Assembly: GCA_023150835.1 (NCBI GenBank)
Contig: JAKLKB010000003.1
Location: 62,001-126,000 of the forward strand
From: Myxococcota bacterium
GTDB lineage: Bacteria > Myxococcota_C > UBA6777
DNA: 64,000 nt
Direction: 5' to 3'
This document shows, one piece after another, positions 37,607 through 60,199 of this stretch (its first letter is position 1; each line of letters opens with the position of its first letter). The position numbers and the translations under genes were made by a program. Under the pieces are notes generated by a model. That model was not told where the DNA came from, did no database searches, and was given only the letters and a program-made list of their open reading frames with translations.

Positions 37607-37961
37607 CGCCTACTCCGTCCGTTTGGCTTGATGAAAGACCACATCCTGCTTCGACCCTACACCAAAGGCGTCGTCCTGCACACCTCTCTCCAGCCTCGAA
37701 GACGATACGCCTTGACCTTGCGGGCCTTGTTCACTACGCTATCGCCCGAATCTCGGCACGTTATCGCCCGAATCTCAGCGATCCGAGCGACCGCCAAGAT
37801 CGCCTCGCACCGTAAAACATTCTTTGCGCTGCGACCTTGCCCATGCCATGCTCGCAACTCTTCACTCAATTTTCACGCGACGCCTACAACCCCTTCAAGT
37901 CTTCTCTGCACTTAGCGCGATGTTGCGCCACTCTTCTTTCCCGCCCAAAAAAAGAGGCCCG

Positions 37962-41500: not shown

Positions 41501-41784
41501 GTTTGGGGGGACAAGAAAACTGGCTTGCGCAGATCCGTTGGAGTTGGTATGCCCGCATCCTCGGACCTCAGACCTCCTTTACTGTGCTGGAAAATCAAGC
41601 CCAATGGGAAGCCTTGCGCCGAAAACAACAGCAAGTCCTCGCAGGAAAAAGCTTTTTCGATCTGACCGAAGACGAAGGACCACGCCGTGCGGATGAACCG
41701 CCGCTCGGAGGGTTGGTGCTGTTGTTGGGGATGTTCTTCTTCTACTTTCTGCGCAAAACACGCAAAGCGCGGTCCCAGAATTAA
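38482..41784 (+). CDS. Multi-helix VIT-domain protein with C-terminal sorting signal (MSEP-CTERM-like)
   Basis: 1100 aa from the ATG at 38482 (GGAG upstream). The first ~400 residues hold about ten membrane helices. A Ser/Thr/Pro-rich stretch (res ~480-620) includes three RSPQSTVASTSPP units. Residues ~628-745 are a VIT domain (ILLRITNYGTWQQEFSTSF, GALTEKKATLWVYQQIVRAR, FPVLARETRQTSFTLL), followed by a degenerate vWA-like region (AILDCSQG). The tail is RADEPPLGG, a hydrophobic helix and RKTRKARSQN, the layout of an exosortase target; the DEPPLG motif resembles the SEP of MSEP-CTERM proteins. Known XrtK and XrtN systems pair one exosortase with one such membrane/VIT protein. It is translationally coupled to the exosortase gene. 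The mature role is unknown. Confidence 0.8.
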   Translation: MNVPTQPHLEPAEPSRQLDLQSSNHPYWLLLSLTLPQVLLWLAFFYQYILIQSLLSDKSKGYWADYGMLIGAGIVGSIFVACFFRYKRHPLPAWLAPLLLFGYIGLLYFSIKDMPQLLPFNIPQWMSQREELSLLPFAFTMPVLFHALLMLIAYFTPNQDETASFPNFFYALLIPLIWYFFIQILVPYLRTKTYLSERLFLIFFICTTVCFFFFLLRGVLLALRKNQKTSRYAPFWRLLIALILPLAGLVTYNARSLFGMRGMHTPQIVGELSHPLFYLCAILAAGALLAPSPLLPRARLALFSLRMVVYPYTLFFFVIFLPFLPLSLLAILVMGLGFLMLAPTLLMILHSRTLAEEWRALRLHYRTTLLGLVAVLSFFAVPSGILTYLFQERATLHRALAYLYQPDHLRVQAPDIYPALLRNSIDALRQHHQRRRGRRFVIADEKRVPFLTSLYKSIVLDNMTLSQNKINELSQTFLGNTSPSQTTTARLFRPNRASPSASLQPIPPQTTAISPHQSRSPQSTVASTSPPRSPQSTVASTSPPRSPQSTVASTSQPNVKIAQPSPASASKMFTPSPSVSTQTALSATRPTSATAATASPHAATQPTVAAAQPAFRITTPKITHLQTSTHYDPTIHAYKSTILLRITNYGTWQQEFSTSFQIPLGVWASAYALWIDGKKVDGALTEKKATLWVYQQIVRARQDPGLLYYEDATTLRLRVFPVLARETRQTSFTLLHKAPFSFQIGASTHHLDDSRVLSRMQRPIERLWGDHLLFFPHEQKAKLPTLTRKPYLHAILDCSQGRKSHYALYIEQIRKLHQRYNLDPTHTRVTFANYQAHTSAWSADLLQHLESYPAQGGLFLVRVLKRIYLEHATQARDSFPVVVVLTPRIQDAILKQRLQGVPFLSPDAASFYSLNPQDRFTRHSLYGPLRDQEIQNTDPATFQPFSLGTVRTWPDAQHPRVFLRNDGQDSLVLRVPYVAQMPPTALPNDPWQAGLAIYGRWLLQQLRLGGQENWLAQIRWSWYARILGPQTSFTVLENQAQWEALRRKQQQVLAGKSFFDLTEDEGPRRADEPPLGGLVLLLGMFFFYFLRKTRKARSQN

Positions 41785-42283: not shown

Positions 42284-45200
42284 ATGAACCCCCAAGACAG
42301 CACCCCCGCCAAAGACACCGCCCCCCAAGAAGCCCAACAAACCCAGATCATCAAGCTCAAGCTGTTTGTTCAAGAACACCACGACGGCCAATTTACCCTC
42401 GAAGTCCTCGGAAAACGCGATATCTGCGTGTACACACCCGACCTCGATCAAGGCCGCGAAGAACTGATGTTGATGCTTGTCGATCTCGTTGAACGCAGCC
42501 ATCCCCGACTCCAAAGTAGCTTCCAACCCCCCGAAGATATCGAACACCACACCATCGAGATCCCCCGTGTGGTCTATGTTTCCGATGCTTCGGGACGTAG
42601 CGCAACCCCAACCAAAGTATCGATGTTCCTTCAACGCGATCGCAAATGGCAACGTCTGTATTTTCCGCGCCTTGACTGCCATTACTGGCTATCGATCGAG
42701 GCTCCGCTCGAAGAAAATGCGATCTCCTTTCTTCAGCAACATCAGTTTAAAAAGATGAGCGATCACGCTCGCCTCAATCAGCGCTATGAGAAAAAAGAAT
42801 GGATCGAAGAGTTGGAGATCGAAGCGATCCGTCCTCCCCTCGAAGAGTTTACAGGCCGGTATCTTGGGGTAGATCTGTTGCCGACTCCTGCGGAGCGCAA
42901 AGAAGCCGAAGAAAAAGAAGAGGAAGAAAACGCCCAAAAGCAAGGAAAAAAAGGCAAGAAGCGCCCGAATACACCGACATTTAAGAAGATCGGGATCCCG
43001 ATCGCACAACAAGCCAAAGACAAAGAACTCGAACATGCCTACGGACGGGACAAAGAGATCGAGTCGTTGTTTGGGATGCTGCAAGCCAAAGGCGGCAAAG
43101 CCATCGTACTAGTCGGTCCTTCGGGCTGTGGCAAAAGCGCCTTGTTGTCGGAGTTGGCCTATCGCGTGACGCACCCTGACACCCCCGAAGCCCTGCGCGA
43201 ACGGCCTATTTGGTTTGCTGATGCCAACCGCGTCGTCGCAACAGACGGATGGTTCGGCGACTGGCAAAGGCAGTGCCTTGATGTCATCCAAGAAGCCATC
43301 GATGCCGAAGTGATCTGGTACATCGGCGATGTCTTGCATCTGCTTGATGCCGGAAAAAACGTTCGTTCCGAGCAAAACGTCGCGATGATGCTCAAGCCCT
43401 ATCTTGCAGGCCGTCGCATCACGGTGATCGGTGAGTGTTCCTCGCGCAACTTTGCACAGCTTGAGTTGCGCGATGTCGGATTCGCCCGTATGTTCAGCCC
43501 TTTTCGCCTCGAAGATCCCCCCCCCGAAACGATCCGCTCCATCCTTCAAGAAGTCTCCAAAGATCTCAAAAAAGAACGCGCCATCGACGTATCGAGCCAA
43601 GGCTTGGACACCACGATGGAACTCAGCCGACGCTTCCAAAGCTCCCAAAGCCTACTCGGCCACAGCGTGGCCTTTTTGCGCCGCCTTGTGGACGACGCTT
43701 CCAGCACAGAAGCCCCCCCCAAAGAACCACTCGGACGCAACGAAGTGATCGCTCACTTTTGCTCAGAAACAGGGATGCCTGCTTTTTTGGTGCGCGATGA
43801 TCTTCCCCTTGATCCCGAAGCGATCTGGATGAGCTTTCGCACCCGCTTGATCGGCCAAGAAGAAGCCATCCGCCGCATGACCGATCTTGTCGCCATGATC
43901 AAGGCTGGGCTCTCTGATCTAGGCCGTCCCCTCGGCTCTTTTCTTTTTGTCGGTCCCACCGGCGTCGGAAAAACAGAGATGGCCAAGTGCCTTACCAGCT
44001 TTTTGTTTGGCCGCGAAGACCGCTTGATCCGCTTTGATATGTCCGAGTTTATCGACGCTTCAAGCGTCTATCGCTTCCTTGGTGACGCCCAAAATGAAGG
44101 GAAATTAATTAGCGCCATCCGCCGCAACCCGTTTTCTGTGCTGTTGCTCGACGAGATCGAAAAAGCCCATCCTGCGGTCTTTGACGTCTTGCTCCAAGTC
44201 CTTGGCGAGGCCCGACTCACCGACGAAGCAGGCCGCACCGCCGATTTCCGAAACGTCGTCGTCTTGATGACCTCAAACCTTGGTGTCGGCACTTTTCGCC
44301 GCCAAGTCGGCTTCGATCAAGGCGATGCGCTGCGCTTTCGCGATCACTTTCTGGCCGAAGCCGAACGCTTCTTTCGCCCCGAATTCTTCAACCGTATCGA
44401 CTACATCATCCCCTTTATGCCCCTCGAAAGCGAAGCCATCCATCAGATCACTGTGCGCGAGATGAACAAGTTCTTGCGCCGCGAAGGCATTCAACACCGC
44501 GAACTCCAACTCCAGATCGATCCGCTCGTCCATCCGTGGCTTGCCGAACGCGGCGTCAACCCACGCTACGGCGCACGCCCGCTCAAGCGCGTGCTTGAAC
44601 AACAGCTAACCGCCCCTCTCGCACGACACCTTTCGAGCCAACGCGGCCCGCACATCGGACAGATCGGCGTCCAACCCGAAAAAGAAGCCCTTCAATTTAC
44701 CAACCTCGGACAATCCAAACGCCAAGACACCCAACAAGCGCGAGCCACACTTCAAAAGCTGCTCGAACAGATCGGACTGGTTCGCTACCGCGCTCAGCGT
44801 TGGTCGCGTACCACCCTCTTTCGCGAACTCCACCAAAAAGTCCGCTTGTTTGATCGCCTCAGCCAGTCCCCCAACTTTTGGAACGATCACCATACCGCCG
44901 AACAATACGTCAAAAACATCGACGCAGAGCGCCAAGTCATCGAACAGTACCGCAGTTTTCAAGAGATGATCTGCTCCATCGAAGACCTCGCTTACGAGAC
45001 TTATTACGATCGCTCCGTCTCACAAAAACACACACTCGAAGAAGAACTTGCGCAGGCCGAAAAAAGCCTTGAAGCCTTGGAGTTTCAACTGTACGGTCAG
45101 CGCTTCCAACACCCCAACGCAGCGACCCTGTACTTTGAACCCGGCAAAAGCGCCGCAGGATTCTTGCGGGCCCTGCTTGAAACCTACATCGAGATCGCCA

Positions 45201-45931
45201 TCGAACGCGGGTGGCAAGTGACGGCCTACGCTTCGCGCCGCGTCCTCGATGAAGAACTTGAAATCCAACAGATCCCTGTCGAAGATCCCCCTCTTCCCGA
45301 GTCCTTGGCTGCTTTAGAAGAGCTTCAAAAACGCAAAGACCGCCGTCCCAACAACGCAAATGCAAGCGCAAATGCAGCTCCCTCCGAACAAGAAAACGAG
45401 CAAGAATCTATCCGCCGCGCCAACGAACAACGCCTGCTCGAATTCAAAAAGCGCAACTCTCTCGAATACCGCCGCTGGCTCTGGCGCGAGCTCGATCCCC
45501 CCGATCTCGCAGAGTCCGAGATGCGAAAACGCCGCATCGAGCGCCTACTTGATCAGCTTTACTCTTTTAGCGGCGACGAATACCCCCGTGTCATGGTCTT
45601 TGAAGGCCAGCACGCCGCAAGCCTACTCAACCACGAAAGCGGCCTCCACACCCGCATCGCCCGCGATCAAACCGAGCAAGTTAAAGTCTTTTACGCCGAT
45701 CAGCGGCCCTCCAAAAAAGAACAACTCCTTCATCCCGTCGATCTTTCCGAGAAATGGAGCACACAACGCCTTCGCACCGCCCAAGAAAACAAAAACCTCT
45801 TGATCGATCATGTCCTTGATACGCACGTCTACCTCGAACCCCGCCTCCACCTTCTTTATGCTCGCATGATGCGCAGCCACATCTACGTCAACACCTTCGG
45901 CGAACAAGCCGCCAAGTGGCTTCGCACCTAG
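42284..45931 (+). CDS. Hsp100/Clp-like AAA+ ATPase fused to GGQ-less RF2-like region (paralogue A)
   Basis: 1215 aa from the ATG at 42284 (CGGAG six bases upstream). Res 1-~195: private N-terminal domain; ~205-230 Glu/Lys linker. AAA-1: Walker A GPSGCGKS (278-285) but the Walker B position reads VIWYIGD (343-349), lacking the Asp-Glu pair. AAA-2 is ClpC/ClpB-like and intact: GPTGVGKT (557-564), LLLDE (620-624), TSNLG, arginine finger RPEFFNRID (698-706), sensor-2 GARPLKR (763-769), plus VGF (675-677) at the ClpP-loop position. From ~815 it reads like release factor 2: coiled coil with SPNFWNDHHTAEQY, then EKSLEALEFQLYG, LRALLETYIEIAIERGWQV and FEGQHAASLLNHESGLHTR (1106-1124), and a domain-4-like end. 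No GGQ or SPF is present. Probably a cytoplasmic hexamer; a ribosome link is inference. Confidence 0.85.
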   Translation: MNPQDSTPAKDTAPQEAQQTQIIKLKLFVQEHHDGQFTLEVLGKRDICVYTPDLDQGREELMLMLVDLVERSHPRLQSSFQPPEDIEHHTIEIPRVVYVSDASGRSATPTKVSMFLQRDRKWQRLYFPRLDCHYWLSIEAPLEENAISFLQQHQFKKMSDHARLNQRYEKKEWIEELEIEAIRPPLEEFTGRYLGVDLLPTPAERKEAEEKEEEENAQKQGKKGKKRPNTPTFKKIGIPIAQQAKDKELEHAYGRDKEIESLFGMLQAKGGKAIVLVGPSGCGKSALLSELAYRVTHPDTPEALRERPIWFADANRVVATDGWFGDWQRQCLDVIQEAIDAEVIWYIGDVLHLLDAGKNVRSEQNVAMMLKPYLAGRRITVIGECSSRNFAQLELRDVGFARMFSPFRLEDPPPETIRSILQEVSKDLKKERAIDVSSQGLDTTMELSRRFQSSQSLLGHSVAFLRRLVDDASSTEAPPKEPLGRNEVIAHFCSETGMPAFLVRDDLPLDPEAIWMSFRTRLIGQEEAIRRMTDLVAMIKAGLSDLGRPLGSFLFVGPTGVGKTEMAKCLTSFLFGREDRLIRFDMSEFIDASSVYRFLGDAQNEGKLISAIRRNPFSVLLLDEIEKAHPAVFDVLLQVLGEARLTDEAGRTADFRNVVVLMTSNLGVGTFRRQVGFDQGDALRFRDHFLAEAERFFRPEFFNRIDYIIPFMPLESEAIHQITVREMNKFLRREGIQHRELQLQIDPLVHPWLAERGVNPRYGARPLKRVLEQQLTAPLARHLSSQRGPHIGQIGVQPEKEALQFTNLGQSKRQDTQQARATLQKLLEQIGLVRYRAQRWSRTTLFRELHQKVRLFDRLSQSPNFWNDHHTAEQYVKNIDAERQVIEQYRSFQEMICSIEDLAYETYYDRSVSQKHTLEEELAQAEKSLEALEFQLYGQRFQHPNAATLYFEPGKSAAGFLRALLETYIEIAIERGWQVTAYASRRVLDEELEIQQIPVEDPPLPESLAALEELQKRKDRRPNNANASANAAPSEQENEQESIRRANEQRLLEFKKRNSLEYRRWLWRELDPPDLAESEMRKRRIERLLDQLYSFSGDEYPRVMVFEGQHAASLLNHESGLHTRIARDQTEQVKVFYADQRPSKKEQLLHPVDLSEKWSTQRLRTAQENKNLLIDHVLDTHVYLEPRLHLLYARMMRSHIYVNTFGEQAAKWLRT

Positions 45932-46323
45932 CCGCACAAGCAAAGTCAAGGATTCATCTAGCTCAAGGCTTCTACGAAGACCACAGGCAATCCATCGCAA
46001 ATAGGGGGATGTTCGAGATCTTGAGCAAGATGTTCTCCCAAAGAAAGCGCTGAAAGATAATCGACTTGGATTCCAACGACTTGGATGGGGACTCGTACAT
46101 ATCTATCTCCACGCCCCTCTGTCAATCTTCCTGTTCCCGCTTGCCCTCGTTTCTAGCGTCGCTCCTGCCCACCGCTCACCTCCACGATAATCTTGACAAA
46201 AAAGGCAAACCGTCCTATCCATCGAAACACATCGGGTTTTGCTGTGCTTTTCTTCCAAGAAATCCAACAGCGACCACGCACCGAGAAACAATGGACTTTT
46301 TTGTCCGATAAAGGAGCCCCACC
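45932..46323. other. Intergenic gap, no gene seen
   Basis: 392 bases without a convincing frame. It ends with AAGGAG seven bases before the DGC-domain gene start. No member of the R1 or R2 repeat families was recognised here. It may carry the promoter of the next gene. Confidence 0.4.
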
Positions 46324-46770
46324 ATGAGCGAAAACCAAGAGAGCGGATATCCTGGGAGGAGAGAAAAACAAGTCAAGTACAAAGCAATGCCGTTGGTGTA
46401 TTCATGTTCGGGTTGTTCGAGTGTTGCGCAGTTGGCGAATGCGTTGGCAGTGCGACTGGATCGAGAAGAACTGGCCGAGATGTCCTGCATCGCGGGGGTG
46501 GGTGGCGGTGTCAAAGCGTTGGTCAAAACAGCCAAGTCCCAAAGACCGATCCTTGCGCTCGATGGTTGCCCGTTGCATTGCACTCTTCATTGCTTGGAAC
46601 AACAAGGCGTCGAACCCACGGTGCATGTCGATCTGTCGACTTTTGGCTTGCGCAAACGCTTTCACGAAGACGCGCTCCCCGAAGAACAAGCCTATGCTTG
46701 GGAACAAGCCATCGAACCCGCTCTTGAACAACTCAAATCTCCCCCGATCGAGCGGGCCAAAAGCGCTTAA
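46324..46770 (+). CDS. Putative zinc-binding DGC-domain protein
   Basis: 148 aa with AAGGAG before the ATG. Motifs CSGCSS (Cys28, Cys31), MSCIAGVGG and LDGCPLHCTLHC (Asp80-Gly81-Cys82, the DGC triad, plus Cys86 and Cys90) identify the DGC-domain family, small putative zinc-binding proteins of unknown biochemical function often found near metal or redox genes. The first ~20 residues are polar and may be an extension. It follows the first Hsp100-RF gene by ~390 bases on the same strand and has no clear functional link to it. Confidence 0.85.
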   Translation: MSENQESGYPGRREKQVKYKAMPLVYSCSGCSSVAQLANALAVRLDREELAEMSCIAGVGGGVKALVKTAKSQRPILALDGCPLHCTLHCLEQQGVEPTVHVDLSTFGLRKRFHEDALPEEQAYAWEQAIEPALEQLKSPPIERAKSA

Positions 46771-46791
46771 AGGCAAGAGGATCGCGAACGC

Positions 46792-47235
46792 ATGGAATGC
46801 CAAGTCTGCTTCAATCGCAATCTGTACACCACTTTTCACACCCTGTGGCTGCGTTACATCCGTTGGGGCGTGGCGCGCTCCCGTCTGACGCCTCTGCTGT
46901 ATCCCTTCGAGATGCTGCTCAATCCGCTGTTGTTGGCTTCGGTTCTTTGGCTGTGGACGGGTTGGTCTTGGCTGTGGGGTTGGTCGCTGTTGTTGATCAA
47001 CCTGCGCGATATCAGCCAATGGTGGATACTGCGTGGAAAGCATCGGTGGTTCTGGGTCTGGATACTCGGCCCGTTTCGCGAGATCGTGTACTCCTGGCTT
47101 GCGGCACCTTTCTACCACACCGTCCAATGGCGCGGACACACACTGCGCGTCGGCGCTGGAACTCATCTCTTCGTCGTCTATCCACCCCAAGAACGCACGC
47201 AAGAACAACCCCAAGAAGCCCCCAAACGCTCGTAG
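46792..47235 (+). pseudogene. C-terminal remnant of a membrane glycosyltransferase (HpnI/GT21-like)
   Basis: 147 aa. The sequence FHTLWLRYIRWGVARSRL, two or three membrane helices, then LGPFREIVYSWLAAPFYHTVQWRGHTLRV resembles only the C-terminal third of ceramide-glucosyltransferase-like or hopanoid HpnI-type GT2/GT21 enzymes: the RW after the catalytic domain, the membrane helices, and the closing WRG strand. The catalytic DXD part is absent and the upstream DNA encodes the DGC protein, so this looks like a 5'-truncated remnant that still has an ATG and a distant AGAGG. A stand-alone membrane subunit is the alternative. Confidence 0.6.
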
Positions 47236-47259
47236 TCACCGCCGATGTAGCAGAAACTT

Positions 47260-47465
47260 AGACGAGATCCGCAGGGTGCGTGATCACAAAACGTCGGGGC
47301 AGACAGGTGTGACGAACACTCGGACACATCCTCTGTAAAGCCCATCCAGCAGGAGATATCTGACAGGGACACGTTTCGTTTGACCCTCACCCCAGCCCTT
47401 CGGGCGTCCCCTCTCCCTGCGACGCTCGCAAAGCCTCGCTGCTGCCGCGAGGGGAAAGCACAGAG
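47260..47465. repeat. R2 fragment plus R4 repeat copy
   Basis: 47260-47330 holds a broken R2 copy (AGACGAGATCCGCAGGGTGC, GTGATCACAAAACGTCGGGG). 47387-47465 is an R4 copy, recognisable by CCTCACCCCAGCCCTTCGGG, GTCCCCTCTCCCTGCGACGC and GCCGCGAGGGGAAAGCACAG; its sister lies at 60107-60187. The hairpin arms are CCCCTCTCCC and a matching GAGGGGAAAG. Confidence 0.6.
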
Positions 47466-47512
47466 CAAAGCAGAAGAGAAACAGAATGGAGCCGCGATGA
47501 TTGGATTTCGTA

Positions 47513-47917
47513 CTAAGCGGACAGACCGGGGGATGGGGTTCGTTCGGGGTTGAGCGACATACGGCTGTGGGGGAGTTCTTGGTCACGGATCTTTTGCAAA
47601 GCCCGGCACATCGTGGGTTTGCTGACGCGAACCTTGGCGCACGAGTAGAAGTCTTCGCAAAGGGCTTCGAGGGTGGCTTCGGGTTTGTTCGCGACGATCT
47701 GGCGAAGTGTGGATAAACTGCCTTGATCGATGCGGGGTTGTGGGCCACGACGATAATCTTTGGGTTGAAGGTGGCCTGTATCACGGAAACGCTTGAGCCA
47801 ATTTTGGACGGTGGCCAAGCACACACAAAAACGGCGGGCCAACTCACGTTGCGAGCCTTCACCGTTTTTGTAAGCATTGATCACACGGATACGCAGATCA
47901 TTGGAATAAGGACGCAT
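47513..47917 (-). pseudogene. IS630-family transposase, N-terminal fragment
   Basis: 134 aa from the ATG at 47917. MRPYSNDLRIRVINAYKNGEGSQRELARRF and VSLATVQNWLKRF-type helix-turn-helix (here CVCLATVQNWLKRFRDTG), then GHLQPKDYRRGPQPRI and LRQIVANKPEATLEALCEDF are the DNA-binding N-terminus of IS630/Tc1-like transposases. The catalytic DDE half is missing; after a degraded LQKI segment the frame ends, and the adjacent DNA is repeats. It is an inactive relic that marks past insertion between Hsp100-RF paralogues A and B. Confidence 0.8.
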
Positions 47918-48699
47918 GGAAAACTCCTTGTGGATCGGATGCAGGGGTGGAGAGTCGCGAAAGCCAAGCAGCGACGTGAGGAGTCGGGCTTGGCTTGGCG
48001 AGCGATGGGAGGCGTTGCGAAGATATTTTTTCGGAAAATGTTGTGCTTCGGCGATCTTTTGCGATAGCAACGGTCGCCCATCTCACAAAAATCAAACCTT
48101 GTGTGGCTTACTTCGTTTGAAGCAGTCGCCGCTGGTTTGGATACGCTTATGCGTCCAAAAAGCCCAACAACACAAAAGAATCGCTTTGGAGTGTGTTTTC
48201 AGCGAACACTTTTCCTCGAAACGACACAAAAATATCGAAACCAACGCCGTCTTGAAACGACAGCCTCAGCCCTGCGGGTTCAACTTCCCCTCTCTCCCGC
48301 GATTTACGGCGTAGAGGAAGTGGAAAACGCTGGGTGCTTTTGACAAAGAAACAAAACCACGTGGAAAAAGCCCGCAACGCAAGCCTTCCACAAAAAACCA
48401 ACGAGCCAAAACATAAAAAACCAAAGAACCCAAGAGATCAGAGAATTCGATCCCGATATACGTCCTGCGACGTCAACTTTCCCTCCGATTTGAGCGTGGT
48501 GTGCGGTTGCAAACACCGAAGCATCGGCACAACACAAACCAGCGTAGAGAAAGTGGATGGCGTAGGATCGCTTTTCCAACCACCCGTCGATACGGGTCAG
48601 GGTGTGGGATAGCACACGCCCCTTTGCGCGTCAATCTTTTTTTCAGGGGCCACCGTTCGGTGTCGCTTGTAGATGGGATCTACGCCATCAAGATGCGTC
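47918..48699. other. Non-coding stretch upstream of IS630 relic
   Basis: About 780 bases with only short, conflicting frames on both strands and no recognisable protein. The part up to ~48080 is presumably the upstream end of the IS630 relic. The rest looks like decayed sequence. No RNA gene or CRISPR is visible. Confidence 0.4.
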
Positions 48700-49132
48700 A
48701 TACGAGATCCGCCCATTGTGTGATCGTAAAACGTAGGGGCAGCCCCCATACGCGCCTTGTTAAGGTGGAAACACCGGATAGTCTAGCCTGATCGCCGTTT
48801 CTTTTGTCGCCCCCCCCTCAATCCCCCCTCAATCCCCCCTCAATCCCCCCGTGAACGGGGGGAAGTTGGAACGGGCAGCGTCTGCGCGTCGTGCATACAG
48901 CGTGTGTCATGAAAAAACAAAATCCCCGCTGCTTCCGACTTTCGCTCCCTCCCCTGTTCACGGGGGAGGGCTGGGGGAGGGCTGGGGTGGGGGGGCCAAC
49001 AAGCGCTTAACCTAACGCCTATGGGGGCTGCCCCCTGTGGCTGCCCAAGAATAGGGCGATCCGCTGCCCAAGAATGGGGCGGTTCGCGAACCGCCCCTAC
49101 ATCATGCGATCATACATTACGCGGAGATCGTA
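48700..49132. repeat. R2 element split by nested G/C-run repeats
   Basis: Left half at 48700-48760 (TACGAGATCCGCCC, TGTGTGATCG, GTAGGGGCAGCCCCC) and right half at 49019-49132 (GGGGGCTGCCCCCTGTGGCT, GGGGCGGTTCGCGAACCGCC, ending GCGGAGATCGTA) look like one R2 element interrupted by ~260 bases that contain four CTCAATCCCCCC units (48808-48850), AACGGGGGGAAGTTGG and its inverted form near 48960-48990. The ends match the intact R2 ends at 11.4 kb. It lies just upstream of the second Hsp100-RF gene. Confidence 0.65.
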
Positions 49133-49236
49133 TCAGTCCTCTACACAAACGGCGTGCTTTGTGTAGGATACGGGAGCGCAATCGAGTCACCGCGCATCGA
49201 AACTCAAAAGATGCGCTGCATCGGGAGATTTGTTTG

Positions 49237-52200
49237 ATGAATGTTGCGATCATGGTGTCCGTCGACGCCAAAGAAAGCTACGAACTCTTTGTACCGGGAC
49301 TGTCTTTGCAGCGCTTTCGCGGGGCCAGCCTCGCCGAGCAGCTCGACAACATCGCCCTTCACTTGATGGAACGGGTTCCACGCTGGCCGATTCGGGATAT
49401 GCCCTTGTTGGCTTTTTGCCCTTATATCGAGCTACGTAAGATCAAGGTCGAGATCGATCTGCGCCCCTTTAAGCAAAAACTCAAAAAGACGTGGACAGGG
49501 CGCTTTGCGGTAGTTCTAAGCCGCTGGCCGGGCGACGGCTTCTACACAGCCGTGATCCCGCGCCTGAGCAACCAACGCTTTGCGCTGATGCGTACGGCTT
49601 ATCTGGAGCATGCCGTCAAGCACTTTGTCGAAGCATGGGTCGAAGAGACGGGAAAGATCGAGCTTGACGACTACATCTGCCGCTCTTACGAGTACCTCGA
49701 AGTTTTGGATGTCGAGTTGGACTACCCAACGATCTTGCCGTCGCGTCCGAAGAAAAACAAAAACAAGACCAAAAAAACCAAGCCGGGCGAACCCAAACAA
49801 AAACGCAAGCGCGAGATCGTTGCACCCACCACCTTGCGCGAAGTCGGACTGAACCTCAGCCACCGCGCCATCGACGATCGCCTCTCTCCGGCATTTGGCC
49901 GAGAGACACTCGTCAAACAGATCCTCCAGTTGCTCCAACGAGAAGGCGCTGCGATCTTGCTTGTGGGCCCGTCGGGTGTAGGAAAAACAGCGATCATCCA
50001 CGAAGTCGTTCGCAGCCTCGCCAAGCAAGAACTCCCAATCCAAGAGCGAAACGACATCTGGGAGATCGATGGCAACCGTCTGATCGCAGGAATGAGCGTG
50101 GTGGGTGCATGGGAACAACGCTGCCAAAATATGGTCCACGAACTCCAATCCCGCAACGATATCCTCTACGTCAACGATCTTCCTTCGCTCGTATACACGG
50201 GGCGTTCCGCACACTCGGACACCCACGTCGCTCAGTACCTCGAACCCCACCTCGCACGCGGTGACTTCCGCATCCTCGGCGAATGTACTCCCGAACGCCT
50301 CGAAGCCACCCGCGAAGAAGCTCCCGGCTTCTTCGCACGCTTCCGCATCCTTCAGATCCCCGAACTCCCCGAAAAAGACACCCTCTCGGTACTTGTTCAC
50401 GCCACACGCCGCTTTGAAACGCTCGAAGATATCGTGATCGCCCCCGACACCCTCCTCACAACACTCGCCCTCACCCGACGCTTTCAAGCCCACGAATGTT
50501 TCCCGGGAAAGGCCATCACGCTCTTGCGTCGATTGATCTCCGACCATCAAGATATCACCGAAGACTCCTTTGGTCGCCGCTCGATCCAACGCGAACAACT
50601 CGTCCGCTTTTTTGAACGCCAAACCGGCCTACCCGGCTTTATTCTGTGGGAACAACAAGCCCGCGCCACCAGCGATATCCGCAGCCACTTTGAGCGCCGC
50701 ATCATCGCCCAACAAGCCGCTGTCCACGCTGTGACAGATGTCGTCACCACCCTTCAACAAGGACTCAACGATCCCGAAAGGCCCCTTGCCACCATGCTTT
50801 TCGTCGGCCCCACAGGTGTCGGCAAAACCGAAACCGCCAAAGCCCTCGCGGCTTATCTCTTTGGCCGAGAAGACCGCATGATCCGCTTTGATATGTCCGA
50901 ATTCATGGATGGATGGGCTGTTTCGCGCCTAATCGGCGACCGCTATCAGCCCGACGGTGAACTCACCCGCCGCGTCCAACAACAGCCCTTTAGTGTGATC
51001 CTGCTCGATGAGATCGAAAAGGGCCATCCTGCCGTCTTTGACGCCATGCTCCAAGTCCTCGGTGAAGGCCGCTTGACCAACGCCGCAGGACGCACCGTCA
51101 ACTTCTGCAACACCGTTGTGATCATGACTTCCAACCTCGGCGTGCGCGAAGCCAACCGCTCTCTCGGCTTTGCTGGCCCCGACGAAGAACAGATGGACAC
51201 CCATTACCGCAAAGCCGCCGAAGGCTTCTTCCGCCCCGAATTCTTCAACCGCATCGATCGCATCGTCCCTTTTCGCCGCCTCGGTCGAGACGCCATCGCT
51301 CCCCTTGTCCAACGCCTTCTCCAAGATATCTTGGGCCGCCGGGGACTTCGTCGCAGCCAAATCATGGTCCAAGTCGATCCCGCACTCGTCGAACTGCTGA
51401 TCGATCTGGGCTTTGATCCCCAATACGGCGCACGCTCCATGAAACGCTTGCTCGAACAGCGCCTCACCGTCCCGCTCGCCAAACGCCTTGTCGAATCGCC
51501 TCCCGCACAAAACACCTTGATCCAAGTCTTCGAACAAGAAAAAGATATCGCGATGGAGATCTGGAACCTCGAAGAACCCCATGTCGAACTCTTGCCCAGC
51601 CTACAGCCCGTTCAACGCTTTGAAGAACTCAAACCCCGCTTTGAAGCCGTCACAACAGGCTTTGCCCTACTCTCCAACGACCCCATGATCCAAACACTTC
51701 AGGCCGAACACACCCAACTCCTTCAAGCCTTTAACGCCCAAACACACGCTTTCCACAACCAGACTTCCGAAACCTCTCTCTCTCCAACTCTCCCCTCCCA
51801 ACAACAAGAGCGGCTCAACTTCCTCGGCGAACTCCTTGACGAGATCCGCCAAATCCAAGGAGCCATCGAGCATTTTCAAGAAGAATACCTCGCCACCTTC
51901 CATTTCCAAGAAGTCCTTGAGTACGGCGTCATGAGCACCATCAAGCACGAATACCGACGTATGCGCTCCGACTTTATCTCCGAACAACCCATCGACAGCG
52001 ACTCCCAACGCTTGCTTCCTTTCGCACGCCTAGCCATCAACGATCTGCGCCTGCGCTTTGCCAGCTTGCTGTTTCGCGCACAAAACGCACACCGCTTCCA
52101 AGGCAACCACGCTCTCTTGCGCATCCTGCCCATGACAGAAGATCCCAATACTCGCCTTCAAATGCTTTGTTTTGCCTACGCTTTCGCCCAATGCTGGCAA

Positions 52201-53214
52201 CCTTGGGCCAGCCTCCAGATCTTCCGATGCGGTCCTCTAGGCTGGCAGATCGACACCACCCCCCACAACGCCCGAAAAGAAGACAGCCTCGCCAACTATC
52301 TCGATGCCAATGCCCCTCAAAGCCAATGGCACGATATCACTGCCATCGCCATCCATCTACACGGCCCCGGCATCCGCCAGTTGCTCGAAGACGAAGTCGG
52401 CTTCTGGCTCTACACCTACAGCAGCGGCCCTGATCAGATCTGTGACCTGTTGCGTATCGAAGATGTATTCGACCAAGCCCTCCTCGCCCTTTGGCCCGAT
52501 ACATCCGCTCCTTCCGATATAAGCAGATCACCCGAAAACTTCGGCACCTCCGACGCCTCCAACCCCCTTAACACATCCGAACCATCCGATACAAACAACG
52601 CACCCAGCACATCCGCTCCATCCGATACAAACAACGCACCCAGCATATCCGCTCCATCCGATACAAACAACGCACCCAGCATATCCGCTCCATCCTACAT
52701 CACCCACACATCCGAACCATCCGATGCGTCCGCTTCCTCCGACACCACCCACACATCCGAACCATCCGATGCGCCCGCTTCCTCCGACACCACCCACACA
52801 TCCGAACCATCCGATACGCCTGCTTCTTCCAACACATCTGAACCATCCGATGCTGTCGCCTCTTCCGATGCTGTCGCCTCTTCCAAGATCACCCACACAA
52901 CCGAGGCATCCGTCCGAACGCCCCATCCATCCGTCCCCACCGAAGCCGAGATCGGCCAAGCGCTCACCGCGATGGATCGAGCTTATACAGATTATCTTGA
53001 AGCACGAAGACAACGCGGCGATGTCCGCAACCCACGTCCACAACTGCCGCTGTGCCGCCTATTCCACGAACACTTTTCGATCGACCCGCTGACGGGCGAA
53101 GAACTCTATCTTCCCGTTCATTCGGACCAAAACGAAACAGATCTGCTCGATCAACTCGCCCAGACCATGCACCGTATCGCGATGTATCGCGTCCTTGCCA
53201 AATACCTCCAATAG
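49237..53214 (+). CDS. Hsp100/Clp-like AAA+ ATPase fused to GGQ-less RF2-like region (paralogue B)
   Basis: 1325 aa from the ATG at 49237 (GGGAG nine bases upstream); earlier in-frame starts fall in repeats. Res 1-~165: private domain; ~170-192 Lys-rich linker. AAA-1: Walker A GPSGVGKT (244-251), Walker B replaced by ILYVND (309-314). AAA-2 intact: GPTGVGKT (524-531), VILLDE (587-592), TSNLGVRE, LGF (643-645) in the position of the ClpA/ClpC ClpP-binding loop, RPEFFNRID (666-674), GARSMKR (731-737). RF2-like parts: coiled coil ~850-920, LQMLCFAYAFAQ (974-985), IHLHGPGIRQLLEDEVGFW (1039-1057). At ~1110-1230 comes a Ser/Thr/Pro repeat (SEPSDTNNAPS-type units) just where the GGQ domain of RF2 would lie; then a domain-4-like end with SIDPLTGEELYLP. 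The gene for paralogue C starts 22 bases later. Confidence 0.85.
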   Translation: MNVAIMVSVDAKESYELFVPGLSLQRFRGASLAEQLDNIALHLMERVPRWPIRDMPLLAFCPYIELRKIKVEIDLRPFKQKLKKTWTGRFAVVLSRWPGDGFYTAVIPRLSNQRFALMRTAYLEHAVKHFVEAWVEETGKIELDDYICRSYEYLEVLDVELDYPTILPSRPKKNKNKTKKTKPGEPKQKRKREIVAPTTLREVGLNLSHRAIDDRLSPAFGRETLVKQILQLLQREGAAILLVGPSGVGKTAIIHEVVRSLAKQELPIQERNDIWEIDGNRLIAGMSVVGAWEQRCQNMVHELQSRNDILYVNDLPSLVYTGRSAHSDTHVAQYLEPHLARGDFRILGECTPERLEATREEAPGFFARFRILQIPELPEKDTLSVLVHATRRFETLEDIVIAPDTLLTTLALTRRFQAHECFPGKAITLLRRLISDHQDITEDSFGRRSIQREQLVRFFERQTGLPGFILWEQQARATSDIRSHFERRIIAQQAAVHAVTDVVTTLQQGLNDPERPLATMLFVGPTGVGKTETAKALAAYLFGREDRMIRFDMSEFMDGWAVSRLIGDRYQPDGELTRRVQQQPFSVILLDEIEKGHPAVFDAMLQVLGEGRLTNAAGRTVNFCNTVVIMTSNLGVREANRSLGFAGPDEEQMDTHYRKAAEGFFRPEFFNRIDRIVPFRRLGRDAIAPLVQRLLQDILGRRGLRRSQIMVQVDPALVELLIDLGFDPQYGARSMKRLLEQRLTVPLAKRLVESPPAQNTLIQVFEQEKDIAMEIWNLEEPHVELLPSLQPVQRFEELKPRFEAVTTGFALLSNDPMIQTLQAEHTQLLQAFNAQTHAFHNQTSETSLSPTLPSQQQERLNFLGELLDEIRQIQGAIEHFQEEYLATFHFQEVLEYGVMSTIKHEYRRMRSDFISEQPIDSDSQRLLPFARLAINDLRLRFASLLFRAQNAHRFQGNHALLRILPMTEDPNTRLQMLCFAYAFAQCWQPWASLQIFRCGPLGWQIDTTPHNARKEDSLANYLDANAPQSQWHDITAIAIHLHGPGIRQLLEDEVGFWLYTYSSGPDQICDLLRIEDVFDQALLALWPDTSAPSDISRSPENFGTSDASNPLNTSEPSDTNNAPSTSAPSDTNNAPSISAPSDTNNAPSISAPSYITHTSEPSDASASSDTTHTSEPSDAPASSDTTHTSEPSDTPASSNTSEPSDAVASSDAVASSKITHTTEASVRTPHPSVPTEAEIGQALTAMDRAYTDYLEARRQRGDVRNPRPQLPLCRLFHEHFSIDPLTGEELYLPVHSDQNETDLLDQLAQTMHRIAMYRVLAKYLQ

Positions 53215-53236
53215 CCCATAGCTCACGGATCGCCGC

Positions 53237-56200
53237 ATGCAACAGCGTTTTCATGTCTTCACCAAACACCACTTTAACGGATGGTATACCGCGCAAGTCC
53301 TCACCCATCCCAACTACACCACATACGCCGCCACCCTCAAACAAGCCCGCGAGGAACTTCACGAAGTCCTTGCCCGCGAACTCGCGCTCAAACGCATCAC
53401 CACCCCCGAAACCGACACCTTCTTCGATCCGCTGAACCAACACGCCCTACGGCTCGAACTCAACGCGGTCCAAAACGAGCGCCTTGTGCGTGTCCCCATG
53501 CGTTTTACTTTGTTCGAGCGCCCGCTCAAGGAAAAAGATCTCTTCGAGATCTGGATCCCTCGGATCGAAAAGACATTTCGGATCTTCGACAAAGACAACA
53601 TCATCCCTTGGTCCGAAGAGATCGTGCGCGGCTTCTTTCACTTGCGCCAAGTCGAGTCCCTGCTGCAATACCAATACGAACGCAACGAACGCCTCGAAGC
53701 CTTGGAGGTGGTGTACCACGGAGCAGGCCGCTACAAGGTTAAAAAAGAAGACGAAAAGCCCGACGAGGATATCTTTGCCTTCCAAGAGAGCAATCCGCTC
53801 AAAGAAGTGGGCGTCAATCTGACGCTCGAAGCCTCGGAAGGACGCTTGCAACGCGCTCATTTTCGAGAAAAGCCCCTTCAACAACTGCTGTCCGTTCTCA
53901 GCGGCCACCAGCAACGCAGCCTTTTGTTGATCGGCCCGTCGGGTGTAGGCAAGAGCGCACTTGTCCACGAACTCGCCCATCGCATCGCACTCAAACAAGT
54001 CCCTGAGCGCCTTCACAACACCAATATCTGGTACGTCACAGGAGGCCGCATCATCGCAGGGATGAAGTATCTCGGGGAGTGGCAAGAGCGATGTATGCGG
54101 ATCATCGAGGAAGTTCGCGCAGAACAAGGCATCCTTTATATCGACGGCATCCTCGAAGTGATGATGTCGGGTTCGCTGCGCAGCGGACTCAACGTTGCAC
54201 AGATGCTGTTGCCGTTTTTGCAAAAAGATGACTTGGTGGTGATCGCCGAAGCAACGCCCGATGCACTCGCGATGGCTGAACAACTCAACGCCCCCTTTGT
54301 CCAAACCTTCCGACGCTTCCCTGTTCCCGCCTTTTCCGCCCAAGAATCGTTCTCCATCCTCGAACGTTCCGCCCAAAAGCTCGGCAAAGAGAACCAGATC
54401 CTGTTTACCCGCGAAGCCCTTCAACGTGCGCTCGATATCCTCGCTCGCTTCGGCGATGCCAATGCTCTCCCCGGCTCTGGCATCCGATTGATTGAGCAGA
54501 TGGCCCACCTCTATCCCCCCGGCACACAAAAACGCAAGCTCCATCCACAAGACGCCATCCAAGCTTTTTCCCGCTCTAGCGGCTTTCCTGAGGCCCTGAT
54601 CGATCCCGATCAAAACCTTGATATGGACGCTGTTCGGCAGTTCTTTTTGGATCGCATCGTCGGCCAAGACAACCCTGTCCGTTTGCTCTCGAATCTGATC
54701 ATGTTGATCAAAGCCAGCCTCAATGATCCCCAAAAACCCCTCGGCTCCTTTCTCTTTATGGGACCCACAGGAGTCGGAAAGACCGAGTCGGTCTTGGCCC
54801 TCACCGAATATCTTTTCCGCGACCGCAAACGCCTGATCCGCCTCGATATGTCCGAATACGCGGCTCACGGTTCGGCCATGCGCCTTGTCGGAGGCGTCGA
54901 CGGCGAAGGCGACCTCACCCGCAAGATCCGCGAACAACCCTTCTCTGTTGTCCTCCTTGATGAGATCGAAAAAGCCGACCCAAGTGTCTTTGATATCCTA
55001 CTCCAAGTCCTCGGTGAAGGCCGTCTCACCGACACCACAGGCTCCACCGTCCACTTTACCCATGCCATCGTGATCATGACCTCCAACCTCGGGGCCGAAC
55101 AAAAGAACCCCGTCGGCTTTGCAGGCCGCACTCTCAAAGGTCTCGAAGCCCATTACCGCGATGCTGCCGAGCGTTTCTTTCGGCCCGAATTCATCAACCG
55201 CATCGACTTCTTGGTCCCCTTCCATCCGCTCGAACGCGATTCTCTCCGACGCATCGCAAAGATGATGCTCGATCAAGCCATCCAACGCGAAGGCTTCCAG
55301 CGCCGCGAGATCAAAGTCCAGTACAACGACGAACTGCTCGATCATCTCGTCTCTATCGGCTATCAACCCCGCTACGGAGCGCGACCCATGAAGCGCGCCA
55401 TCGAACAAACTGTCCTCGTCCCGCTCTCTCGACGACTGATCCGCAGAAAAGACGCACAGGCCGAAACCTTCGAGCTTTACATCGACCAAGATCACCTCGC
55501 CATCCTCTCCAACCGCACCCCCTCCACCCCCATCCCTCTGCCCTTGCGCACCGTCCAACTCCAACACGACAACCTCTGGGAACGCTATCTCGGCGACCTC
55601 CGACGCCGACTCCAGTCTTGGGAAGAAACCCCTTTCCTGCTCGAACTCCGACAACAAGGACATCCGCTGTTCGGGCGTTTTGCACACTTCCTCCAAGACA
55701 TCCACGATATCGAGTGGCTGTCCAAACGCACTCCCTCCACCCTTCCTCCCAACACCCAAGCGGATCTCCACGCCCGCGCCCTCGCACTCGACGCACAGCG
55801 CCTCCAACTCGAATGGGATCTCTCTGTCGCTCGGTGGCTCCTCTCCCCCCATCCCACCGCCTGTTCGCTCTTTCTCCACAGCCCCACGCTCCACCCCCAA
55901 AGCATCCGCCTGATGCTGCGCATGGCCGATGCCTACAAACAATTCGCCCAAGAACTCGACCTCTCCCTCCAGATCACCGAAGAACCCCAACGCATCGCTC
56001 TGTCCTTTCAAGGCTCTCTCGCCGCCCTCTTGCGCGCAGAGATCGGCATCCATCGCCTACAGATCGAAGACAACGCCTCCGTCGATATCATCCTCTCCGA
56101 AACAACCCAACCACCCGACCTCACCACCACCGAAGAAGATTCCCCCCTCCCGATCCGCATCCTCACCGAAGATCCACCCCTGCTCTTCGATCCGCTGTCT

Positions 56201-56281
56201 TCTCTTGAGATCCACGCCCCCCTCACCACCCTCTCGTCCCATCTACGGACTTTTTTGCTCATGCGCTTTGACTTCGCATAG
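53237..56281 (+). CDS. Hsp100/Clp-like AAA+ ATPase fused to GGQ-less RF2-like region (paralogue C)
   Basis: 1014 aa, the most compact paralogue. Res 1-~165: private N-terminal domain. AAA-1: GPSGVGKS (233-240), Walker B reads ILYIDG (299-304), so the catalytic Glu is Gly. AAA-2 intact: GPTGVGKT (509-516), VVLLDE (571-576), TSNLG, VGF (626-628), RPEFINRID (649-657), GARPMKR (714-720). RF2-like region from ~775: [34 protein letters not shown] (889-907), [21 protein letters not shown] (920-940), then directly [15 protein letters not shown] (strand of RF domain 2 with the SPF loop deleted) and [17 protein letters not shown] (domain-4-like). No GGQ. It follows paralogue B by 22 bases and precedes hsdM by ~70 bases, so B, C and possibly the restriction genes form one transcript. 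Confidence 0.85.
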
Positions 56282-56352
56282 AAGTCATGCGACATCGCCC
56301 AAACCAACACACGGAACACACCACTCCAAACCTACAGGAAGCTCACTCCACA

Positions 56353-58770
56353 ATGCCACTTACCTTGCCGCAACTTGAACACCACCTCTTTAGTGCTGCC
56401 GACATCCTACGCGGTAAAATGGATGCCTCCGAGTTCAAAGAATACATCTTCGGAATGTTATTCTTGAAACGCTGTTCCGACCAATTCGAGGTTCACCACG
56501 CAGAGATCATACGCGCACAAAAAGCCAAAAACCGCCCCGAAGAAGAAGCCCTCCAACGTGCTGAAAGTGCATCCTTTTATACAGGAACCTTCTTTGTTCC
56601 TCCCATGGCCCGCTGGCCCGCCCTTCGCGACCATCTTCACACCAACGTCGGCGACGGACTCAACAAAGCACTTGGCGCATTAGAAACAGCAAACAGCGCA
56701 CTCAGCGGCGTTGTCCAACACATCGACTTTACCCGCACTGTCGGAAAAAGCCGACTCCCCGACAAAAAACTTCTTGAGCTGATCAAACACTTTAACAAAT
56801 ACCGTCTCCGCAACGAAGATTTCGAGTTCCCCGACCTACTCGGAGCCGCATACGAATACCTCATCGGCCAATTTGCAGACTCTGCTGGCAAAAAAGGCGG
56901 CGAGTTCTACACACCCCGCGCCGTCGTCAAGATGATGGTGCGACTCGCCGACCCCAAAGAAGGGATGCGTGTCTATGACCCTTGCTCTGGTTCAGGGGGT
57001 ATGTTGATCCTCGCCCGCGAACACGTCGCTGAACACGGCGGAGATCCACGAAATCTCCGCCTCTTTGGGCAAGAAGACAACGGCGGTGTTTGGTCGATCT
57101 CCAAAATGAACATGATCCTCCACAGCATCCCCGACGCCATCATCGAAAACGGCGATACCCTCGGATTTCCCCTCCACAAAGAAGGCGGTGAGTTGATGCG
57201 CTTCGACCGCATTCTCACCAACCCCCCTTTCTCGCAAAACTACAAACGCGAAGACATGGAGTTCACCGAACGCTTCCACTATGGCTGGTGCCCCGAATCG
57301 GGCAAAAAAGCCGACTTGATGTTTGTCCAACACATGATCGCCGTGATGCGTCCCAACGGCATGATCTGCACCGTCATGCCACACGGCGTCTTGTTTCGCG
57401 GTGGAGACGAAAAGACTATCCGCGCAGGTATTATCCAAGACGACCTGCTCGATGCCGTGATCGGACTTGCGCCCAATCTCTTCTATGGAACAGGCATCCC
57501 CGCTTGTATCCTCGTACTCCGCGCCAAAGGCAGCAAACCCGCCGAGCGCAAAGGCAAAGTCCTCTTTATCAACGCAGATGCAGAGTTTCGCTCAGGCCGC
57601 GCACAAAATTACCTCGACCCCGAACACATCGAAAAGATCGTCAATGCTTACCAGCGTTACGAAGAGATCCCCGGCTTTGCAGCGCTCGTCGACAACACCA
57701 CGCTCGCCGAAAACGGCTACAACCTCAACATCCGACGTTATGCCGACAACGCCCCGCCTCCCGAACCCCACGACGTGCGGGCGCACTTGCAAGGCGGCAT
57801 CCCCAAGGCCGAAGTCCAAGACAAACAACCGCTCTTCCAAGCCCACGGACTCGACCCGATGCGCCTCTTTGTCGAGAGAGACAAACACTACCTCGACTTC
57901 GCCCCAACCCTCCAAAGCAGAAACGACCTCAAACCGCGCATCGAACAAGATCCCGGACTCCTTGCACGCGAAGCCGAACTCTTCCAAGCCTTCGAGGTTT
58001 GGTGGAACACTTACCGCGCCCAGATCGTCGGCTTGCCCACCACCCAACGGTTGATGCTCACACGCGCCGAACTCATGGAATCGTTCGAGAAAGCCCTTGT
58101 ACCCATCGGTCTCTTGGATCGTTTCCAAGTCGCGGGAACGATTGCGCGTTGGTGGGGCGATGTCTTGTACGACCTACGGGCGGTGATGGCGCAAGGATTT
58201 ATGGGCGGTATCCACAGTTGGGTCGCCTCTATCCTCTCGCTCTTGGAAAACAGGCAAAAAGCCAACAGCCCTTTCGAGCACAAACTTGCGCGCCGACTCT
58301 TGGCCGATCTCAACGAAGAAATCACTCAAAAAGAAGCCGAGATCGCCGAGTTGGATAGCCAAATCAAAGCCGCCAAACCCAACGACGACGATGAAAACAA
58401 CGACGAGAACAGCGACAACGACGAAGAAGACGCCTTGAGCGAAGAAGAGATCAAAAAACGCAAAAGCAAACTCAGCGCCGCCAAAAAACAGCTCAAACAG
58501 CTATACAACAGCTTTGAAGAAGCTCTCAAACATGCCCGCGATGCTCTCGACAATGACGAAGCCCAAGTCCTTGTCTTGGAGATCCTCTCCAGCGACCTCC
58601 GCGACGAACTCACCCGCAAAGTCCACGCACACCGACAAACCGTCACCGCCGCTTTTGAAAATTGGTGGGACAAGTACCGCGTCACCTTGCGCGAGATCGA
58701 AAGGGCACGCGACACCGCCAAAACACGGATAGACGGTTTCTTGAAGGAGTTGGGCTATGTCGTTGGTTAA
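56353..58770 (+). CDS. hsdM: Type I restriction-modification DNA methyltransferase subunit
   Basis: 805 aa from the ATG at 56353 (an ATG at 56287 would add 22 residues). N-terminal helical domain [23 protein letters not shown], then [13 protein letters not shown] (183-195), AdoMet motif [11 protein letters not shown] (209-219) and catalytic NPPF (290-293), the standard N6-adenine HsdM layout. Beyond residue ~500 there is a ~300-residue helical extension not found in the short E. coli type, with Glu/Asp-rich coiled coil ([21 protein letters not shown]). It methylates the host sequence together with HsdS. The end overlaps hsdS by 14 bases. Confidence 0.93.
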
Positions 58771-60034
58771 AAAATGGAGCGAATACCGACTGGGTGATCT
58801 TTCTAGGATCCGTAGAGGAGCCAGCCCCCGACCTATCTCAAATCCTGCATGGTTCGCAGAAAAAGGCCCCGGATGGATAAGGATCTCTGATGTTACCAAA
58901 ACCGAGGGCAAATTAACACAAACAGAGCAAAGACTGTCACCGGAAGGGGTAAAACGAAGCGTTCCGGTACACCCCGGCCAAGTAATCATGAGCATATGCG
59001 CAACAATTGGAGAACCTATCGAAATTGGAATCGAGGCTTGTATCCACGATGGATTCGTCGTATTTGACCAACACGAACACTGTCTAGATAAAAGGTTCCT
59101 CATACACCACTTGCGAAAAACACAATCCTTCTTCAAAGGACAAGGCCAAACAGGAACACAAGCAAACCTGAACACAGGTATTGTTGCCCAAAGCCCAATC
59201 CAACTCCCGCCCCTCGCGGAGCAGCGGCGCATCGCGGAGATCCTCGATACACTGGACGAAGCGATACGACAGACGGAGGCGCTGTTGGCGAAGTTGCAGC
59301 AGATGAAACAGGGGTTGCTGCATGATCTGTTGACGCGGGGGATCGGCGCAGATGGGGCGCTGCGTCCGCCACACGAAGAAGTTCCCGCGCTTTACAAGGA
59401 TTCGCCGCTTGGCAAGATCCCGAAAGACTGGACGGTCGGGAGGTTAGAAGATTTTTTGACAAACTTGATCGATTATAGAGGAAAAACGCCAAACAAAACG
59501 AACCACGGGATTCCTCTGATCACAGCACGAAATGTACGGATGGGATTTATTGATCCAGAACCTAAGGAATACATAGCAGCTTCCGCGTACACACATTGGA
59601 TGACACGAGGAATTCCCTCTCCGGGCGATGTGTTGTTCACGATGGAAGCTCCCTTGGGGCATGCAGCATTTTTCCCACAAGAAAAAGTGGCTCTCGCGCA
59701 ACGTATCGTGACGCTCGTTCCCAACAGAAGCAAAGTGGCGGACAAATTTTTGCTATGGTTGGTGTTATGGCATGGTTCGCAAACCAGAATCTATCGTTAC
59801 TCAACGGGTTCAACGGTATTGGGGATAAAACAATCTGTCCTCAGAAAGATACTATTTCAGTTCCCTACGATAGCCGAAGGTCTTTGTATATCGGACATTT
59901 TAGCGAAAGCTTCTTGCAAAATCGAGCAGGAACAAGAGGAACTCCAAAAGCTCCGCTCGCTCAAGGCGGGTTTGATGGAGGATTTGTTGACAGGGCGGGT
60001 GCGTGTGCCAGTGGTCGAAGAAGGAGAGGGTTGA
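58757..60034 (+). CDS. hsdS: Type I restriction-modification specificity subunit
   Basis: 425 aa with AAGGAG before the ATG. Two target-recognition domains, each followed by a conserved coiled-coil spacer: first [20 protein letters not shown] ... [13 protein letters not shown] (151-195), second [17 protein letters not shown] ... [15 protein letters not shown] near the C-terminus. It decides the bipartite DNA sequence recognised by the complex. The first TRD ([18 protein letters not shown]) and second ([19 protein letters not shown]) are unlike each other, as expected. Codons AGA, ATA and TTA are common here, unlike the upstream genes, suggesting recent acquisition or TRD exchange. Confidence 0.93.
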
Positions 60035-60106
60035 GAGAGTGCCTTGACCGACGGGGGAAGCAACAGCTAGTTTCAATCGAGAGAAGGAGTTCGGGAGGTG
60101 TTGAAC

Positions 60107-60187
60107 CTCACCCCTGTCCTTCGGACATCCCCTCTCCACGCGGGCGCTCACCGCGTTCGCTGCGCAGAGAGGGGAAAGAAAGCACGG
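60107..60187. repeat. R4 repeat copy
   Basis: About 80 bases related to 47387-47465: CCTCACCCCTGTCCTTCGGA, CCCCTCTCCACGCGGGCG, CTGCGCAGAGAGGGGAAAG. The arms CCCCTCTC and GAGAGGGG can pair. It lies between hsdS and the ATPase gene, so the pair may be transcribed separately from hsdMS. Confidence 0.65.
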
Positions 60188-60199
60188 AGATTGCGGTAC

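Follow-up and report, generated by a model that had tools for sequence, protein, structure and literature searches.

In the stretch of Myxococcota DNA analysed here (contig JAKLKB010000003.1, positions 62,001 to 126,000; 64,000 nucleotides, hereafter the window), three large paralogous genes of the plus strand, A, B and C, encode proteins that each carry two Clp-type AAA+ modules and a C-terminal tail attributable to peptide chain release factor 2 (RF2). From profile comparisons and a structure model we regard it as established that the A tail descends from domains 1 and 2, the N-terminal half of RF2; the RF2 origin of the C tail is well supported by profile comparison, and that of the remote B tail is likely. 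Comparison of genomes shows A, B and C to be a conserved set that spans at least three phyla and looks co-inherited, and the three-component system which they form is real and apparently undescribed.

Origin of the C-terminal tails

The relationship is clearest in protein A (42284-45931, plus strand; 1215 amino acids), where the tail follows the D1 and D2 AAA+ modules (residues 250-418 and 516-772, respectively). Alone among the three proteins, A passes the Pfam cut-off for the PCRF domain (PF03462; 27.3 bits against a cut-off of 24, E 3.7e-6, residues 851-983), and it is matched by the NCBIfam model of RF2, prfB (TIGR00020, E 1e-8); the whole genome contains three PCRF matches, namely A and two release-factor genes of normal size. 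Among 24 A tails, 20 match prfB, which is the sole NCBIfam family found at E<=0.01, and 12 match PCRF at the same threshold. A profile of the A tails, compared with all PDB sequences, yielded 28 matches at E<=1, exclusively to release factors, the best being to RF2 (3.3e-12); this profile also retrieves RF2 genes in whole genomes (several were read and confirmed), and hhalign of the A tails against a profile of nine release factors gave 98.6% with E 1.4e-15.

Modelled with AlphaFold2 from three sequences, at a mean pLDDT (predicted local distance difference test) of 58.7, the A tail displays the release-factor-like order of elements. The top 29 chains found by Foldseek with this model are all RF2, RF1 or mtRF1, and VIA-align places it on residues 4-227 of RF2 (Z 13.4, root-mean-square deviation 6.1 Å, 203 residues aligned), so that the likeness to RF2 claimed in an earlier note on this DNA extends to the predicted fold. 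Domain 4 of RF2 is not seen in the model, and the domain-4-like strand set, with which that note had closed each of the proteins, is left unsupported.

It is hardly credible that the likeness to RF2 is a chance one, shown by the coiled-coil tail of an ordinary ClpC- or ClpB-like unfoldase, and for A this explanation is already refuted. The match does begin in the helical part, and some unrelated helical bundles also come near Z 12-13 in VIA-align; yet these cover only the coiled-coil part, whereas the match to RF2 runs on into the alpha/beta domain 2. The exclusive recovery of release factors from PDB speaks against chance as well, as do reversed and shuffled controls, which scored far lower, and whole-genome searches, which besides the trio mostly return frames of release-factor size.

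Three segments of the A tail can be assigned to RF2, all on the plus strand. The domain-1-like helical region (residues 843-944, 44810-45115), including SPNFWND, is delimited by the PCRF and prfB matches, by the PDB profile search, which here returns release factors only, and by VIA-align. It is followed by a domain-2-like strand-helix-strand unit (residues 945-982, 45116-45229), for which the evidence comes from the model, from VIA-align, from the PDB profile search and from a joint alignment, in which 45 A tails were aligned together with release factors; the GG(T/D)E loop of RF2 is replaced here. The remaining domain 2 core, RVMVFEGQHAASLLNHESGLHTRI (45587-45658), from which the SPF/HTS loop is deleted, comes from the joint alignment; its motif, G-x-x-A-x-x-L-L-x-x-E-x-G-x-H-R, taken as a loose pattern, occurs in 43 of the 45 A proteins. 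Large insertions interrupt the middle of domain 2. At the beginning of domain 1, an RF2-like FW-x-(D/N) can be recognised in the relatives of the window and in the Bradymonadales-like set, and cannot be recognised in the Planctomycetota set or in the more distant Myxococcota. The most conserved residues of the A tail include the FW of the domain 1 start and the G, E, G and H of domain 2, which are conserved in RF2 as well.

In release factors the GG(T/D)E loop reads the first base of the stop codon, and the roles of SPF, HTS and GGQ are equally well established. Both GG(T/D)E and SPF/HTS are absent from all 45 A tails in the joint alignment. The A tails have no match to the GGQ-bearing domain 3 (PF00472, RF-1) and no GGQ in release-factor context, the few GGQ strings in homologue tails all lying outside such context; the absence of GGQ and SPF, reported in the earlier note, is thereby borne out. 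These alignments show a retained fold core and the loss of every part that would read stop codons or release peptides. Summing up the comparison with RF2 (PF03462 plus PF00472), A resembles it in the domain 1 helices, the alpha/beta core of domain 2, the W-(N/D)-D start and the domain 2 motif given above, and differs from it in lacking GG(T/D)E, SPF/HTS, the GGQ domain and any detectable domain 4, and in that the RF2 part sits at the C-terminus of a Clp-type protein.

Protein C (53237-56281, plus strand; 1014 amino acids; D1 at residues 206-372, D2 at 469-723) ends in a short RF2-like tail (55466-56278), whose domain 2 motif lies within 55994-56062. Protein B (49237-53214, plus strand; 1325 amino acids; D1 at residues 217-383, D2 at 484-740) has a strongly diverged one (51514-53211) with the motif IHLHGPGIRQLLEDEVGFW within 52345-52413; comparison with a B orthologue places the start of B at about 49237 (ATG, MNVAIM) rather than at 49021. 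Pfam PCRF has no match in the B tails and none in the C tails. In hhalign, the C tail matched the release-factor profile with 92% (E 6.5e-7) and the B tail with 63% (E 7e-5), and the A tail matched those of B and C with 96% and 98%, respectively. Against reversed, column-shuffled and block-shuffled release-factor profiles the scores were 117 versus at most 41 for A, 43 versus at most 25 for B and 55 versus at most 39 for C, all three tails thus exceeding every shuffled control. The model of the B tail (mean pLDDT 43.7) is too poor for use alone; its top eight Foldseek matches are release factors, at non-significant E values of 0.15-1.3. Taken together, the claim of three Clp-like AAA+ proteins with RF2-related tails has been confirmed, strongly for A, clearly by profile for C and as a remote relationship for B. 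A repeat insert rich in Ser, Pro, Asp and Thr occupies 52510-52935 (plus strand) of the B tail and is absent from the B orthologue in another genome, G004.

The AAA+ modules

As judged from domain content, the trio is of the Hsp100 kind and not a release factor: each protein has the two AAA+ modules with ClpB_D2-small that define two-ring Hsp100/Clp proteins, and it is not classed with release factors because, of their defining features tested, none was found other than the PCRF domain. The best-scoring NCBIfam models for A, B and C are ClpB and ClpA, with scores far under the equivalog cut-offs, and the N-terminal regions match no Pfam family above cut-off. With ClpA and ClpC the trio shares the D1-D2 layout without the M-domain of ClpB, the D2 Walker A, Walker B and arginine finger, and a hydrophobic-G-F tripeptide (xGF) at the ClpP-docking loop; it differs from them in having no recognised N-domain, no catalytic glutamate in D1 and no GYVG in D2, in carrying the RF2-derived tail, and in the occurrence of three paralogues together. 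With ClpB, ClpV, ClpK and ClpG it shares the AAA_2 and ClpB_D2-small domains, ClpB being the top-scoring NCBIfam model, whereas the scores far below the cut-offs and the absence of the M-domain and of GYVG set it apart.

The residues of the modules were compared in 117 trio proteins. Nearly all of them retain the Walker A of D1, and the Walker B "DE" of D1 occurs in none; in A the latter reads VIWYIGD (43310-43330, plus strand), and the corresponding stretches of B (50158-50181) and C (54128-54151) likewise have no catalytic glutamate. The D2 Walker B "DE" is present in all 117, and the D2 Walker A and arginine finger are found in A, B and C of the window. By its residues D2 is therefore predicted to be ATPase-competent, and D1 is not. 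The GYVG of the D2 pore loop is missing from all 117 proteins, whereas the five canonical Clps of the same genome all keep GYVG or GYAG; in A the region reads FLGDAQNEGKL with GYVG deleted (44075-44107, plus strand), and the same holds for B (50929-50964) and C (54887-54916). Since this grip loop is lost, ordinary D2-driven threading appears doubtful. The earlier description of the proteins as Clp unfoldases thus stands as to the two-ring Clp-type architecture and the ATPase residues of D2, and fails as to the D2 pore loop and the Walker B glutamate of D1. At one locus (L122), a 1007-residue frame outside the trio encodes an additional Clp-like protein, whose D1 Walker B is degenerate (VLPDLH) and whose D2 has GYAG.

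Most of the 117 proteins carry the hydrophobic-G-F tripeptide (IGF, VGF, LGF or similar) at the ClpP-docking position: VGF in A (44300-44320, plus strand), LGF in B (51157-51177) and VGF in C (55106-55126). It aligns with the IGF of the two ClpA-like proteins of the genome and with the VGF of its ClpC-like protein, and is absent from its ClpB. ClpP genes are present in the genome.

Distribution and gene order

Trios with the gene order A-B-C occur in three phyla: the small one to which the window belongs (Myxococcota_C in GTDB), Myxococcota and Planctomycetota. The phylum of the window was sampled by five genomes, all of one family. Genomes of several phyla were scanned with the A-tail profile (E<=1e-12 in all scans but one), and long frames of about 1000-1500 amino acids were counted as members. 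These occur in about 38 of 377 Myxococcota and about 14 of 343 Planctomycetota genomes; 395 Desulfobacterota and 396 Actinomycetota genomes yielded no long-frame members, only frames of release-factor size. Stand-alone frames of about 350-400 amino acids matching the profile are found in all four of these phyla.

All three genes were present at 30 loci, with pairwise distance correlations of 0.96-0.97, and in nearly all loci read they follow the order A-B-C with short spacing or overlap. G004 (contig PCBK01000105 of the metagenome-assembled genome Deltaproteobacteria NP119) has them contiguous, as does G002, whose A and B genes share 4 bases. A contig scan yielded a Lujinxingiaceae (Bradymonadales) metagenome-assembled genome, whose phylum we call Myxococcota from the general placement of the Bradymonadales, with the order A-B-C and a TonB receptor gene between B and C. 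A stands apart from B and C in the window and in G001; in the window about 3.3 kb of unrelated DNA separates A from B within the span 42284-56281. In the open-licence literature we found no description of the trio or of Clp/AAA+ proteins with PCRF or release-factor-like domains, and the passages found in Kaur 2020 (PMC7159879) and in the 2021 bDLD paper (PMC8195603) do not describe the trio.

Gene neighbourhood

Across 44 loci, no conserved functional partner was found beyond Ser/Thr protein kinases, and no defence genes recur as neighbours. At 11 of these loci (L010, L100, L106, L115, L139, L141-L143, L156-L158) such kinases are encoded close to the trio, possibly by chance, the genomes being rich in kinases. 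The largest apparent cluster of neighbours was rejected, as it consisted of antisense frames of the trio itself.

Directly after C the window contains the type I restriction-modification genes hsdM and hsdS and, after these, genes for an AbiEii-like ATPase (AAA_15/AAA_21) and for a DUF3226 protein (56287-62199, plus strand). This set would favour a role of the trio in translation shut-off or in anti-phage defence, the former having been among the functions suggested in the earlier note, but such a role is very unlikely and we do not favour it, because no defence neighbours recur over the 44 loci (the kinases that do are common in such genomes) and the restriction-modification genes do not reappear among the loci read. 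Moreover, PADLOC gave no full-length defence match, only generic AAA+ fragments of the DolB, PDC-M37B, mad8 and IetA models; a tblastn search of plasmids with the A tail had no match; and the three genes look co-inherited.

On the other side of the trio, directly upstream of A (37824-41784, plus strand), a weak exosortase-like protein (PF09721, under the cut-off) overlaps a large membrane protein that contains a VIT domain (PF08487). Between A and B (46324-48070) lie genes for a DGC-domain protein and for a glycosyltransferase that appears truncated, as well as, on the minus strand, a piece of an IS630-type transposase; the glycosyltransferase frame has a longer counterpart downstream of A in G001 (L014). 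The window also has a second ClpP gene (19773-20351, plus strand; PF00574, 207 bits), which apparently keeps the Ser, His and Asp triad and shares 99% identity with its counterpart in the sister genome and 76-78% with those of the other family members.

Proposed mode of action

As to what the trio does, we see about an even chance that it is a mixed-ring AAA+ machine, whose xGF loops would dock on ClpP or a ClpP-like partner and whose RF2-derived modules would serve as a docking arm to a client. The co-conservation of three non-identical subunits suggests that the three proteins form a joint assembly, most likely a single mixed ring. ATP hydrolysis in D2 would drive such a machine, and D1 would hold nucleotide and carry the pore loops that are left; the xGF tripeptide suggests docking on ClpP or something similar. 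The RF2-derived modules would bring the machine to its client, the most plausible docking target being the ribosomal factor-binding region, contacted through RF2 domain 1, or else a protein partner that once recognised RF2. Because the usual pore loop of D2 is missing, the client would be remodelled or handed over by a non-canonical route.

To judge by the lost motifs, the RF2-derived module has become unable to act in termination, while its binding to the ribosome is plausible. Entry into the A site or its mimicry, proposed in the earlier note, fares accordingly: with the codon-reading parts and GGQ gone in 45 A proteins, mimicry at the decoding centre is unlikely, and through domain 1 the tail might still reach the factor-binding region. 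The more specific idea of a ribosome-docked, ClpP-linked three-subunit Hsp100 ring, which would use a dead RF2 arm to remove nascent chains or factors from ribosomes that have stalled or are terminating, is rather unlikely.

Several observations weigh against the docking machine proposed here. A conserved contact with the decoding centre is made less likely by the missing decoding loops and by the strong divergence of the tails of B and C, and the C tail is missing from C of most other genomes, i.e., the module is not required in every subunit. The lost grip loop of D2 disfavours ordinary threading of proteins. The ClpP gene of the window, considered as a partner of the trio, was rejected, since it shows no linkage to the trio in other genomes. 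The mixed ring rests on co-occurrence, and the distance correlation is in part shared species history; docking to ClpP and to the ribosome are both read from the sequence.

Some of these facts would also suit another explanation, namely that the RF2 module is a structural leftover, a coiled-coil and alpha/beta scaffold that holds subunits together or binds adaptors and makes no contact with the ribosome. We hold this for a serious possibility, albeit not a probable one. All functional loops of the release factor are lost in the 45 A proteins, large insertions split domain 2, the tails of B and C are far diverged and C is usually without one; however, several of the most conserved residues of the A tail (FW; G, E, G and H) are those conserved in RF2 too, and A has retained the module across phyla.

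Implications

ArfB/ICT1, mtRF-R and RF-H are paralogues of class I release factors in other use, which have kept the GGQ domain and lost or altered domains 1 and 2. The trio resembles them as a reused derivative of a release factor and is their reverse, as domains 1 and 2 are kept and GGQ is lost: the opposite half of RF2 has been retained and is attached to Clp-type ATPases, which are encoded by three genes whose order is conserved in at least three phyla. It joins two machines not known to be linked, that of protein remodelling and degradation and that of translation termination. Whether a Clp machine docks on the ribosome via a relic of RF2 becomes a question testable in culturable Myxococcota or Planctomycetota, and if it does, the trio might represent an unrecognised pathway of co-translational quality control in these two phyla.

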